Source: Acidobacteria bacterium RIFCSPLOWO2_02_FULL_65_29 (GTDB lineage: Bacteria; Acidobacteriota; Vicinamibacteria; Vicinamibacterales; CAVVIG01). From it: 51,853 nt of DNA. Within the stretch, counting starts at the first letter, position 1. Every line of letters begins with the position of its first letter. The DNA lies in the NCBI GenBank assembly GCA_001767435.1, contig MEKT01000079.1, positions 1 through 51,853 of the forward strand. Reading direction: 5' to 3'. The notes under the pieces were generated by a model. It searched no databases. It saw nothing but the letters and a program-made list of their open reading frames with translations, and was not told where the DNA came from. Below are positions 6,453-45,567 of this stretch, one piece after another. The translations under genes were made by a program, and so were the position numbers.

Positions 6453-6683
6453 GGTGAGACCTCCAACGAAACAGACAGGGCACACTATCTAACACGCGCG
6501 GGGACGTCTGCAAGCGCAAACGAAGGGACGAACCCGGCATGGCACGACCCGCTCTCGAGGGAGACGATTTCAGACGCGCAGGTCCAGCAGCACCACGGGC
6601 TGCTGGGACACGGGTTGACACGCGCACGGGAATCGGCTGACGATGGCTCGGCTGACTCCCAATCAAGAACTCCGGAGGTCGTG

Positions 6684-27076: not shown

Positions 27077-27108
27077 GGGTAGTGCAGGACTTCAGTCCCG
27101 CACTACCC
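27077..27108. terminator. palindromic repeat after the aminotransferase
   Basis: GGGTAGTG (27077-27084) pairs with CACTACCC (27101-27108) around a GCAGGACTTCAGTCCCGC core. It belongs to the same repeat family as 29104-29177 and 42759-42837 and probably ends the aminotransferase transcript. Confidence 0.55.
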
Positions 27109-27291
27109 CGGCGCGCGTGCACGTCCGAGACACCTCTTCTCCTCGACCGCAGTGCCCGTGCCGGCCGCAGGCTTCTGTCCACCGATCGGCCCGTCATCCA
27201 CCATCCGGGCAAATCATCCGCTTTGTTGTTGTCCATCGGATCGCGTGCGGTGGAGAATGAGACCCTCAACCCCCACGGCTTGAGGAATCAC

Positions 27292-29055
27292 ATGCGAATA
27301 TCAGCTTCCGTCGCCGCCCTGTCCACCCTCCTCGCCCTAGCAGCCAGTGGTGCAACTCCATCTGCATTCGAACGGCGATGCATCCCGGCTGGCTGCGTTG
27401 CTTCTCCTTCAAATATTCCCGATATTCTCGGTCGTCGCGCCTTGCCAGCCGGGCGCCTCGCCGTTCTCGGTGCGACGATGGCGTTGCACCACGGGCTGCT
27501 AGCCACTGTCGACTCGGGCGCGCAGCAGGCGCCTGCCTACGATGTCATCGTCCGAAACGCGCGGATCGTGGACGGCACCGGCAGCCCGTGGTACCGGTCG
27601 GATATCGCCATACGCGGCGACGCGATCGCCCGGATCGCGTTTCGCATCGACGCGCCAGCCACGCGCACGATCGACGCCGCCGGCAGGGTCGTCGCGCCCG
27701 GCTTCATCGACATCCACTCGCACGCCCGAGCCGGGATCTTCGACGTGCCGACGGCCGAGAACTACATCCGTCAGGGCGTGACGACGGCGATTGAAGGTCC
27801 CGACGGATCGTCGCCGATCCCGCTGAAGCCGTTTCTCGACAAGGTCGCCGCCACACGCGTCACCGTGAACTTCGGCACGTTCATCGGGCAGGGATCGGTG
27901 CGGGAACAAATGATCGGCTCGGTGAATCGCCGAGCGACTCCCGAAGAGATGGAGAGGATGCGCGCGCTGGTCCGCCAAGGCATGGCGGACGGCGCGTTCG
28001 GTCTCAGCACCGGCCTGTTCTACATCCCTGGCACGTTCACACCGACCGCCGAGGTCATTGACCTTGCCAGGGTCGCGGGCGCCCTGGGCGGCATCCACAT
28101 CTCGCATATGCGCGAGGAGACCGTGAAGGTCGCCGACAGCGTGCGCGAGACGATCGAGATTGGGGAGAAGGGCGGCCTGCCGACCCAGGTGACCCACCAC
28201 AAGGTCATTGGCAAACCCTACTGGGGCCGGAGCGTCGAGACGTTGCGATTGATCGACGAAGCCCGCGCGCGCGGCGTGGATGCGACACTCGATCAGTATC
28301 CGTACACGGCTTCGGCGACGGCGATCGGATCGGCGCTCGTCCCGGTGTGGGCTCGAGAGGGCGGCACGGAGGCGATGCTGAAACGATTGAAGGACGCCGG
28401 CTCGCGCGCCGACATCCTGGCCGAAGTGATCCGCCTGCTGCAGGAGGAGCGTGGCGGCGGCGATCCGCAGAACGTGCAACTGTCGCGGTGCGTCTGGGAT
28501 CCGTCGCTCGACGGCAAGCGCCTTGGCGACGTGACGAAGGGGCGCGGCCTCCAGCCCACGCTCCGCAACGCGGCCGAGACCGTGCTGTGGATCGTGGAAA
28601 GCGGCGGGTGTGGAGGCATCTATCACGCCATTGAGGAGCAGGATCTCCAGCGCATCATGCGTCATCCGGCGACGATGATCGCGTCTGATGGTGGAGTGCC
28701 CGTCTTCGGACAAGGGAGCCCGCATCCGCGCAACTACGGCACGTTCGCCCGCGTCCTTGGCCGCTATGTCCGCGAGCTGAAGATCATCACGCTCGAAGAC
28801 GCCGTGCGCAAGATGACCTCGTTTCCCGCGCAACGGCTCGGTCTGGTCGATCGCGGCGTCCTGCGCGAGGGGATGAGAGCTGACATGGCCGTCTTCGATC
28901 CCGAAACCGTCCGCGACCGCGCGACGTTCGAACAGCCCCATCAGTACGCTGAAGGCGTGTCGCTTGTCATCGTCAACGGCGAGGTGGTCTTCGAGAACGG
29001 GACGATGACCGCCGCGCGTCCGGGTCGCATCTTGTACGGTCCCGGGCATCGGTAA
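27292..29055 (+). CDS. N-acyl-D-amino-acid deacylase (D-aminoacylase) family protein
   Basis: 587 residues from ATG 27292, with GAGGA 5 nt upstream and a signal-peptide start (MRISASVAALSTLLA); the open frame upstream of it is repeat-rich and unlikely to be translated. The catalytic region begins at AYDVIVRNARIVDGTGSPWY. Motifs include the metal-binding IDIHSHARAG, HISHMREE, THHKVIGK and MIASDGG, and the sandwich end ADMAVFDPETV. The family releases D-amino acids from N-acyl derivatives. Codons 16-70 are supplied entirely by a MITE-like element (27337-27502) between the signal-peptide core and the enzyme, adding about 55 residues that relatives should lack. Possible partner of the exported aminotransferase just upstream. 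Confidence 0.87.
   Translation: MRISASVAALSTLLALAASGATPSAFERRCIPAGCVASPSNIPDILGRRALPAGRLAVLGATMALHHGLLATVDSGAQQAPAYDVIVRNARIVDGTGSPWYRSDIAIRGDAIARIAFRIDAPATRTIDAAGRVVAPGFIDIHSHARAGIFDVPTAENYIRQGVTTAIEGPDGSSPIPLKPFLDKVAATRVTVNFGTFIGQGSVREQMIGSVNRRATPEEMERMRALVRQGMADGAFGLSTGLFYIPGTFTPTAEVIDLARVAGALGGIHISHMREETVKVADSVRETIEIGEKGGLPTQVTHHKVIGKPYWGRSVETLRLIDEARARGVDATLDQYPYTASATAIGSALVPVWAREGGTEAMLKRLKDAGSRADILAEVIRLLQEERGGGDPQNVQLSRCVWDPSLDGKRLGDVTKGRGLQPTLRNAAETVLWIVESGGCGGIYHAIEEQDLQRIMRHPATMIASDGGVPVFGQGSPHPRNYGTFARVLGRYVRELKIITLEDAVRKMTSFPAQRLGLVDRGVLREGMRADMAVFDPETVRDRATFEQPHQYAEGVSLVIVNGEVVFENGTMTAARPGRILYGPGHR
27337..27502. mobile_element. 166-bp MITE-like element inside the D-aminoacylase gene
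   Basis: The ends are inverted repeats agreeing at 19 of 20 positions: CTAGCAGCCAGTGGTGCAAC at 27337-27356 and its complement at 27483-27502. Inside lie further GC-rich inverted words (CGTCGCGCC near 27434, GGTGCGACG near 27470). No transposase is encoded. A 78-bp part (27421-27498) recurs at 45490-45567 with 65 of 78 identical bases. The element length is not a multiple of three, yet the host frame stays open through it. Confidence 0.72.
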
Positions 29056-29103
29056 CGAAACTTCCGGGCGGCACTTGAGTCGACGTACCGCCGCCCATGT
29101 AGT

Positions 29104-29177
29104 GCAGGACTTCAGTCCTGCTGGTGCTAGTGCAGGACTTCAGTCCTGCTGGTGCTAGTGCAGGACGTCAGTCCTGC
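29104..29177. repeat. three tandem palindromic repeats, 28-bp period
   Basis: GCAGGAC-TTCA-GTCCTGC at 29104-29121 and 29132-29149 and the variant with GTCA loop at 29160-29177, separated by a constant TGGTGCTAGT spacer. Members of the same family occur at 27085, 42765 and, with pairing-conserving changes, at 42820. Lies after the D-aminoacylase gene and may terminate it. Confidence 0.75.
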
Positions 29178-42700: not shown

Positions 42701-44884
42701 ATGAACCGACGTTCCTTCTTGAATGCCACACGGGGTTCGGGGCTCGCGTTGCAGGCGTGTAGTGCAGGACTTCAGTCCTGCCTACGGTGGGCGGGTATGA
42801 AAACTGATGTAGGCGTAGCGCGGGGCTTCAGCCCTGCCGTGCTGGTCATCACGGTAGCCCTGCTGGCGGGCCTGCAGACCACGCGCGCGCAGCAGGACAG
42901 CGCGCAAGTCGAGAAACGACTCGCGAGCGCGCAGCACAAGGCGACGGTCGACGGCGACCTGAAGGGCGCCATCGAGGAATACAAGAAGATTGTCGCCAGC
43001 GCGGGCAACAACCGAGCGGTCGCCGCGCAGGCGCTCGTGCGCATGGCCGAGTGTTACGAGAAGCTCGAGGTTGCCGAGGCGCGAAACGTGTACGAACAGA
43101 TCGCTCGCGACTACTCTGACCAGAAGGGCGCCGTCGCAATCGCGCGCGAGCGGCTGGGGCGTGCCCCTTCTGCCGGAACATATGCCGGCATGAGCAGCCG
43201 GCGAGTCCTGACGCTGCCCGCCTTTGGGGATCTCGCGACTGGCGGCGCCATTTCCTCCGACGGGCGCATTCTCACTTATTTCGATTGGGCGACGGGCGGT
43301 AGTCTGGTTGTGCACGACCTCGCGACCAGCCGAGAGCGGCGGATCTCGGACTCCAGGTACGGCGGAAGTGCGGCCATTTCACGCGATACCAAGCAGGTCG
43401 CCTACAACTGGAACTCCAACCAACTGCGGGTCGCCTCGCTCGAAGGCAGCGGCCCGCTCCACTCGAGACTCCTGGCTGCCATCGAAGACGTCTTGTGGTT
43501 CCAGATATTCGATTGGTCACCGGACGGCACCTGGATCGCCGTGCAGTTGACCAGGCCGGACAATACCAGCCAGCTGGGCTTGATCTCGGCCGGCGACGGC
43601 ACGCTGCGCGTGCTGAAGTCCTCGCAGTGGCTAGGAGCGACTCAAGTGTTTTTCTCGCCTGACGGGAAATACCTGGGCTTCGATCTCCCTGCCGGCGAGA
43701 GCAATACCAGCCAGCGTGATGTGTTTATTCTGGCTGTGGATGGAACCCGCGAAGTCCGAGCTGTGGAAGGATCCAGCGACGACACCTTGATGGGCTGGTC
43801 ACCCGATGGGAAATATCTCCTGTTCGCGACTGATCGGGCTGGCAGCGTTGGCCTATGGGCAGTCGCGATTGTGGATGGAAGACCGCACGGAACCCCCGAG
43901 CTGATCAAACCGGACATCCCTCGACGAGCTCTTGGGGTCACCTCTTCCGGCCGTCTGTACACAGGCGTCTTCCTCGGCGACCGAGACATCCGGGTGGCCT
44001 CCGTGGATTTCGAAACCGGTAAGTTGCTGAGCGGACCCGTCAAGCCTGTCCAGAGTTTCGTCGGATTCAACGATTCGCCGAGCTGGTCGCCAGACGGGAA
44101 GTACCTGGCCTACCTCTCCAGGCGCGATAATTTGGGCCGGAGCCGCGCTCTCGGGATTCAATCGATCGAAACCGGGCAGGTTCGCGAATGGCAGCCAAGG
44201 CAGCTCAACTACTTTCAAATGCCCCGCTGGGCGCCCGATGGCCGGTCCGTGATCGTTTCAGGCAGAGACCTCAAGAACCGGCCGGGCACGCATCGGGTCG
44301 ATGCACAGACCGGCGAAGCGACGCGTATCGGTGATAGGGGCGGGCGGCCACAGTTGTCTCCAGATGGCATGCGCCTGTATGGGGACAGGAACATCAACGG
44401 TCGCCGGCCCATCGTCGAATACGACCTCGCCACCGGCAACGAGAGAACGATCATCGAGCGCGACAATCTGGGACCCCCAGGTCTGTCGCCCGACGGGCGC
44501 GTGATTGCGGCGGTGGCCTCCGATGGACCCGCGAGCTCGTCAGTTCTGCTCCTCATCCCTGTGGCCGGAGGCGTGCCCAAGGAATTGCTTCGCGTCACTC
44601 CGCCACAGTGGCTGGACCGTCGGATCGTCGGCTGGACGCCGGATGGTCGGGCGGCCCTCGTCCACATGCTGGACAAAGGAGAGCAGGGAGAGCAGGGAGA
44701 CCTCCTCCTGGTTCCAACCGCAGGCGGTCAACCTCGCAAGATCGACGTGGGCATGCGCGTGTGGGGAGGTTTCGGTTTTGACGTGCATCCCGACGGGCAT
44801 CGGATCGCGTTTGTCGGCGGTGAAGACAAGACCGAACTCTGGGTCCTCGAGAATTTCCTGCCGGCGCTGAAGGCGAGCCGGTGA
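42701..44884 (+). CDS. exported TPR + PD40 beta-propeller protein 2
   Basis: 727 residues from ATG 42701 (GAGGAG about 10 nt upstream). The leader is odd: MNRRSFLNATRGSGLALQA is followed by residues encoded by two palindromic repeats, then a second hydrophobic stretch (LVITVALLAGLQTTRAQ). A start at ATG 42798 would bypass one repeat. TPR-like part at about 80-150 (GAIEEYKKIVASAGNN, ALVRMAECYEKLEVAEARNVYEQIARDY). The propeller has many SPDG units (FDWSPDGTWIAVQL, MGWSPDGKYLLFATDR, PSWSPDGKYLAYLSR, VGWTPDGRAALV) and ends WVLENFLPALKASR, nearly the same ending as protein 3. Third element of cassette 2. A short GGAGAGCA tandem near 44680 adds GEQGEQG. Confidence 0.85.
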   Translation: MNRRSFLNATRGSGLALQACSAGLQSCLRWAGMKTDVGVARGFSPAVLVITVALLAGLQTTRAQQDSAQVEKRLASAQHKATVDGDLKGAIEEYKKIVASAGNNRAVAAQALVRMAECYEKLEVAEARNVYEQIARDYSDQKGAVAIARERLGRAPSAGTYAGMSSRRVLTLPAFGDLATGGAISSDGRILTYFDWATGGSLVVHDLATSRERRISDSRYGGSAAISRDTKQVAYNWNSNQLRVASLEGSGPLHSRLLAAIEDVLWFQIFDWSPDGTWIAVQLTRPDNTSQLGLISAGDGTLRVLKSSQWLGATQVFFSPDGKYLGFDLPAGESNTSQRDVFILAVDGTREVRAVEGSSDDTLMGWSPDGKYLLFATDRAGSVGLWAVAIVDGRPHGTPELIKPDIPRRALGVTSSGRLYTGVFLGDRDIRVASVDFETGKLLSGPVKPVQSFVGFNDSPSWSPDGKYLAYLSRRDNLGRSRALGIQSIETGQVREWQPRQLNYFQMPRWAPDGRSVIVSGRDLKNRPGTHRVDAQTGEATRIGDRGGRPQLSPDGMRLYGDRNINGRRPIVEYDLATGNERTIIERDNLGPPGLSPDGRVIAAVASDGPASSSVLLLIPVAGGVPKELLRVTPPQWLDRRIVGWTPDGRAALVHMLDKGEQGEQGDLLLVPTAGGQPRKIDVGMRVWGGFGFDVHPDGHRIAFVGGEDKTELWVLENFLPALKASR
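42759..42837. repeat. two GCAGGACTTCAGTCCTGC-type palindromes in the leader of propeller protein 2
   Basis: GTAG-TGCAGGACTTCAGTCCTGC-CTAC spans 42759-42785, and a variant with GGGGC/GCCCT arms lies at 42815-42837. The change on one arm is matched on the other, so the stem is kept. Same family as 27077-27108 and 29104-29177. Confidence 0.75.
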
Positions 44885-45489: not shown

Positions 45490-45567
45490 GATATTCTCAC
45501 TCGTCGCGCCTTGCCGGCGGGGCGCCTCGCCCGTCTCGGCGCGACGCCAGACTTTCACCACGGGCTG
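45490..45567. mobile_element. MITE fragment between antitoxin and toxin
   Basis: 78 bp aligned without gaps to 27421-27498, with 65 identical positions. Only the right part of the element is present; its left half and terminal repeat are missing. CGTCGCGCC/GGCGCGACG inverted arms remain. It lies 2 nt upstream of the toxin start. A CTAG, as at the ends of the intact element, occurs at the antitoxin stop. Confidence 0.7.

Follow-up and report, generated by a model that had tools for sequence, protein, structure and literature searches.

The D-aminoacylase-like gene and its leader

The window, a stretch of 51,853 nucleotides, carries a gene for a putatively secreted D-aminoacylase-like amidohydrolase with a short palindromic element in its leader. 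The features of the locus are as follows.

27292..29055, plus strand: D-aminoacylase-like amidohydrolase gene, putatively secreted, 587 amino acids with the insert
27282..27287, plus strand: Shine-Dalgarno-like GAGGAA, 4 nt upstream of ATG 27292 (read from the sequence)
27292..27336, plus strand: signal-peptide start MRISASVAALSTLLA, codons 1-15 (read from the sequence); modelled helix at residues 4-17; signal-peptide-like by a hydropathy test
27337..27340, plus strand: left target-site duplication CTAG (YTAR), direct, not inverted, from flank agreement over 120 copies
27341..27498, plus strand: palindromic MITE of 158 bp, the exact length of 75 of the 120 copies having both ends; about 40 copies in the genome
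27341..27362, plus strand: left terminal inverted repeat CAGCCAGTGGTGCAACTCCATC, from the inverted-repeat match
27395..27444, plus strand: central conserved core, common to elements with unlike terminal repeats, from core comparisons
27477..27498, plus strand: right terminal inverted repeat GATGGCGTTGCACCACGGGCTG, from the inverted-repeat match
27499..27502, plus strand: right target-site duplication CTAG, from flank agreement over 120 copies
27499..27534, plus strand: remaining leader of the pre-insertion gene (..LATVDSGAQQAP), from orthologue N-termini

From the ATG at 27292 the reading frame runs without stops or frameshifts to the termination codon that ends at 29055, and ribosomes starting at this ATG must translate across the element. 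The CTAG at the start of the insert is read CTA Gxx, from codon 16 on, and the remaining leader is followed by YDV and then by the enzyme domain. The protein matches PF07969 (5.7e-29, residues 125-567) and also PF01979, and its match to the NCBIfam amidohydrolase model PRK09061 (1.6e-71) lies under that model's cut-off. In the structure model, pLDDT is below 50 at residues 16-54, so that the insert is predicted to be disordered, and above 90 from residue 81 on, where the enzyme part is intact. The model also predicts a second helix at residues 53-73 and this, together with an in-frame ATG at 27478, would fit translation starting inside the element, whose right end (MALHHGLLATVDSGAQQ) would then supply a new short leader. 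We consider such a start improbable: ATG 27478 has no Shine-Dalgarno sequence ahead of it, whereas ATG 27292 has GAGGAA, and the internal ATG is absent from most other in-gene copies of the element.

A REP-like palindrome, TAGTGCAGGACTTCAGTCCTGC, lies on both sides of the D-aminoacylase-like gene, at 27080-27105, 29100-29177 and 42760-42837; it occurs singly and in tandem with 28-bp spacing.

Boundaries, copies and origin of the element

The initial annotation had proposed a 166-bp MITE-like element at 27337-27502, bounded by 20-bp terminal inverted repeats with 19 matches. The inverted repeat is real, extending over 26 nt (27337-27362 and 27477-27502) with 92% complementarity, a pattern for which the chance expectation in shuffles is 0.01, but the outer limits had to be moved inwards. 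Copies elsewhere define the terminal sequence as CAGCCCGTGGTG...CACCACGGGCTG. Because the outer 4 bases vary between copies (CTAG, TTAG, CTAA, TTAA, TCAA) and agree within one copy as direct repeats (20/88 at non-palindromic sites, as compared with 3/88 for inverted agreement), they represent a 4-bp YTAR target-site duplication outside a 158-bp element (27341-27498). This resolves the puzzle raised by the annotation, an open frame across 166 bp, a length that three does not divide: the net gain is 158 + 4 = 162 bp, and these 54 whole codons leave the frame open. Being short (<300 bp), multicopy and without a transposase gene, and having both terminal inverted repeats and a target-site duplication, the element shows the characters of a MITE. 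A REP/RAYT palindrome, for which a hairpin, a GTAG-type tag and no target duplication would be expected, was rejected given the direct 4-bp duplications. Some larger copies measure 197, 236 or 275 bp, exceeding 158 bp by one to three units of 39 bp. In these (L163, L177, L200, L233 and others) a nested palindromic unit, about CCACCCCAACGCGGCTGCCGCGTTGGGGACCCC, adds length in 39-bp steps, 39 being a multiple of three.

About 40 copies are spread over many contigs of the organism's own 5.5-Mb draft genome, mostly at 79-93% identity, and the element is present in 32 of 60 relatives. A covariance model of the family found matches in 33/247 Acidobacteriota genomes, the assemblies surveyed being largely metagenome bins. 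The core pattern also matches Gammaproteobacteria; most scan matches to this core bear names of Acidobacteria subdivision 6 or Luteitalea-like organisms, and viral contigs gave no match to it.

The orthologues of the enzyme display the gene without the element. More than 20 of them, with 43-76% identity, lack the 54 residues and have leaders of 19-35 residues followed directly by ..YDL.., the start of the catalytic domain; thus the L090 orthologue has the N-terminus MRTRSIALALVAGVALAAGALRAQTPAYDLIIRNGRIVDG, as against MRISASVAALSTLLA-[54 residues]-LATVDSGAQQAPAYDVIVRNARIVDG in the host gene. Homologues with a plain leader, which the annotation had called for, therefore exist, and among the orthologues examined (matches in 48/60 genomes, N-termini read) none carries the 55 residues, whose presence in distant homologues would have spoken against an insertion. 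On these sequence comparisons, the element is inserted by transposition at a CTAG within the signal-peptide codons, with duplication of the CTAG.

A different reading, which denies mobility and gives the palindrome a role in the D-aminoacylase-like gene as functional RNA or regulatory element, could draw on its very stable strand fold (z = -9.4 as DNA, -11.0 as RNA) and on double compensatory changes at 39 of 50 consensus stem pairs. However, copies are scattered over unrelated loci, where they are flanked by target duplications, no Rfam covariance model matches up to E = 1, and G.T mismatches in the stems, at 40, show no advantage over A.C, at 70; pairing thus seems to be maintained at the level of DNA. 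The mismatch counts led us to reject an RNA-level function, and we regard this reading as a whole as very improbable.

Lone TIR-like sequences resembling CAGCCCGTGGTG, without a partner, are found in the window on the minus strand at 6591-6602 and 45556-45567; they are possibly remnants or chance occurrences.

Reading through the element in leaders and other genes

In the element consensus, the C-TAG phase is a stop and the CT-AGC phase meets TGA in ..TGGTGA.., so only the CTA-GCA-GCC (Leu-Ala-Ala) phase is open, and it is so on both strands. Among individual copies, the CTA-Gxx phase is open across the interior in 69/69 on the plus strand and in 56/69 on the minus strand. Since this is the single open phase, an insertion at a leader Leu-Ala reads straight through. 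A Leu-Ala pair is often found where signal-peptide cores end, and when a small residue precedes L-A-A, an A-x-A-like cleavage site arises.

Roughly 20 of 110 unique flanked copies sit inside genes, so that the palindrome is found in frame, and in the same peptide phase, in several unrelated genes. In-gene calls combined coding scores with Pfam matches and inspection by eye, the list being partly curated in this way; for signal-peptide calls, only the (-3,-1) rule and hydropathy were used. The copies fall into three placements, most of them in a signal peptide or directly behind one.

Element directly in a predicted signal peptide: M20 peptidase (L002), esterase (L007), CarboxypepD_reg/outer-membrane protein (L011), polysaccharide export protein (L135), PSD cytochrome (L139), LRR protein (L200), L020, L067 and L123, and the D-aminoacylase-like gene of the window
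Element just downstream of the leader: L147, L151, L179 and L225
Element internal: penicillin acylase (L022), in an apparent spacer; FkbM methyltransferase (L024), with the domain match spanning the element; and L143, L167, L177 and L233

Of 220 flanks, 10 have a signal-peptide-like leader running right up to the element, compared with 1.3 expected from shuffled flanks and with a background of 0.9% over all YTAR sites. The alignment of the M20 peptidase with its orthologues begins only past the element. In the penicillin acylase, the apparent spacer immediately ahead of SNNWV, which we take to be the usual start of the beta chain, is filled by the element together with several other repeats, and this spacer insert is absent from penicillin-acylase orthologues. 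The repeats at L022:1300-1700, in the apparent alpha-beta chain spacer, comprise three in-frame REP-like repeats (TESVVRDFSPAN, i.e. TAGTGCGGGACTTTAGTCCCGC) beside the MITE. For the FkbM copy, the orthologue search returned only other copies of the element.

The orientation of the element in genes is biased, with 18 of 19 copies alike in the curated in-gene set (two-sided sign test, calculated by hand on the curated list, ~8e-5); the peptide of the strand so read is near neutral, and the opposite strand encodes the highly charged RRDDREYREYLREEQRSQ. In addition, a change of CGT to AGT (Arg to Ser) occurs at 3 of the 220 ends, always at the translated 5' end (20 such ends), among them those in the host D-aminoacylase-like gene and in another signal peptide; this post hoc observation is only suggestive of adaptation after insertion. 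Family-wide coding selection on the element peptide was rejected, divergence being nearly flat over the three codon positions (0.079/0.091/0.098), and open frames in excess of a substitution simulation were not used as evidence, three frames being alike in this and the copies sharing ancestry.

Taken as a whole, we hold it to be very probable that the element is an in-frame MITE insertion in the leader that is read through and tolerated because the segment is discarded or flexible. According to this explanation, a transposase acting in trans would have moved the 158-bp non-autonomous MITE into the leader CTAG of the D-aminoacylase-like gene, duplicating the CTAG. The first element codons, L-A-A-S-G-A, would keep the leader hydrophobic and offer an A-x-A type cleavage site, and export therefore probably continues despite the insert; either the mature enzyme would bear a flexible extension of about 50 residues, or cleavage would fall at a later point. 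An alternative is that the gene is a pseudogene in waiting. Export would then be lost through the insertion, and nothing but the recent date of the event and a length of 162 bp, divisible by three, would have kept the frame open. The inserted peptide is indeed charged in places (ERRCIPAG, GRRALPAGR), but the catalytic domain is intact, with 76% identity to an orthologue, the frame has neither stops nor frameshifts, and several unrelated genes have kept insertions in their leaders. Two substitutions in this copy disrupt the palindrome and yet make the peptide less charged: Arg becomes Ser towards the left end and Glu becomes Ala towards the right. We regard a pseudogene as unlikely.

As to why the insertion persists, the annotation had proposed that the segment is cleaved or flexible. 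The predicted disorder of the insert and the recurrence of such placements agree with this, the cause itself being reached by inference: the similar placements in other secreted proteins and in the penicillin-acylase spacer suggest that insertions in leaders and spacers survive since such segments are removed or unstructured, and most likely the element has been retained for the reason that what it alters is discarded or flexible. As the recurrent landing place is a part of the protein that the cell discards, 'tolerated because discarded' becomes testable on many independent cases.

Shared core, differing ends and related systems

When the search was based on the core, the elements retrieved had clearly unlike terminal repeats (TGTCCCGTCCCCGTGATTCG, TGTGGTGTCTCCGAAATAGC, TGGCGTGTCCACGCTGATCA, TCCCCTGGAACCGTGATGAC and further types); most share the 158-bp length and the YTAR flanks, and at least 7 dissimilar terminal-repeat groups surround one core. 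Unlike ends on the same core are exemplified by L155, L162, L165, L168, L203, L208 and L086/L087, among others. When 45 elements were aligned and divided into 7 TIR groups by average linkage (single linkage lumped all TIRs together), the ends had 38% identity between groups and 83% within them, random identity being about 26%, while the core had 85% identity between and within groups alike. From these identities, ends appear to have been exchanged around a constant core, which raises the testable question of how non-autonomous elements switch transposase. We tentatively propose, as one possible picture, a modular mobile palindrome with a conserved core, a mostly fixed 158-bp chassis and exchangeable terminal repeats, in which different transposases would move the same core, symmetry would be kept at the DNA level, and copies in genes would persist preferentially in discarded segments (signal peptides, a precursor spacer).

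Palindromes that code for protein have been a curiosity known from Rickettsia, Wolbachia and enterobacteria, and in the literature searched we found no prior description of this Acidobacteriota (also Gammaproteobacteria) family. The Rickettsia palindromic elements (RPE) are repeats of 105-150 bp found between genes and in frame inside ORFs (PMC10969869, PMC2229807). By description, and with no membership claimed, the present element resembles them in being both intergenic and in frame within ORFs and tolerated by its hosts; it differs in phylum, in its clear 4-bp YTAR duplications, those of RPE being listed as unknown (PMC2229807), in having many of its in-gene copies in signal peptides, and in carrying varied ends on one core. 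Yersinia YPAL/RU-2 and ERIC/RU-1 are small palindromic mobile sequences of 127-168 bp that form in-frame gene fusions (PMC2759123), a likeness again drawn from description, but they show a few predicted signal-peptide cases (PMC2759123) as opposed to about ten in the Acidobacteriota family, and ERIC has TA termini (PMC2229807) instead of YTAR duplications. The Neisseria Correia/NEMIS element likewise is a MITE (107-155 bp) with long TIRs, a stable stem-loop and ORF fusions (PMC2229807); its ends and target differ, and a shared core with exchanged ends is not reported for it in the literature examined. By analogy, then, the element is a protein-tolerated palindromic MITE, in effect like the RPE and ERIC/YPAL fusions. 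Its novelty lies in the lineage, in target duplications that are clean, in repeated placement within leaders and a spacer, and in a core held in common by elements whose ends differ.

The annotation had also suggested looking for a transposase with matching ends; no autonomous transposon with such ends turned up in the organism's own draft genome, the fetched loci of relatives or one closed genome. In the fetched loci, TIR pairs 0.33-2.6 kb apart proved to be separate copies or to enclose ordinary genes, and the PF01609 and PF13546 transposases of relatives examined have ends that differ from those of the MITE, with no identical TIR among these matches. IS5 (L250) and IS701 (L256) elements of relatives do share the 4-bp CTAG-type (YTAR) target duplication, although their terminal repeats are unlike the MITE ends, and by this analogy a DDE transposase of the IS5/IS701 type is the likely mobiliser. 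The closed genome (G229; e.g. L330, L340), rich in relatives of the element, has no long end pair among its listed sites and about 150 element ends in excess; its elements are mostly 227-249 bp long with extra inner palindromes, and thus a length divisible by three is not universal.
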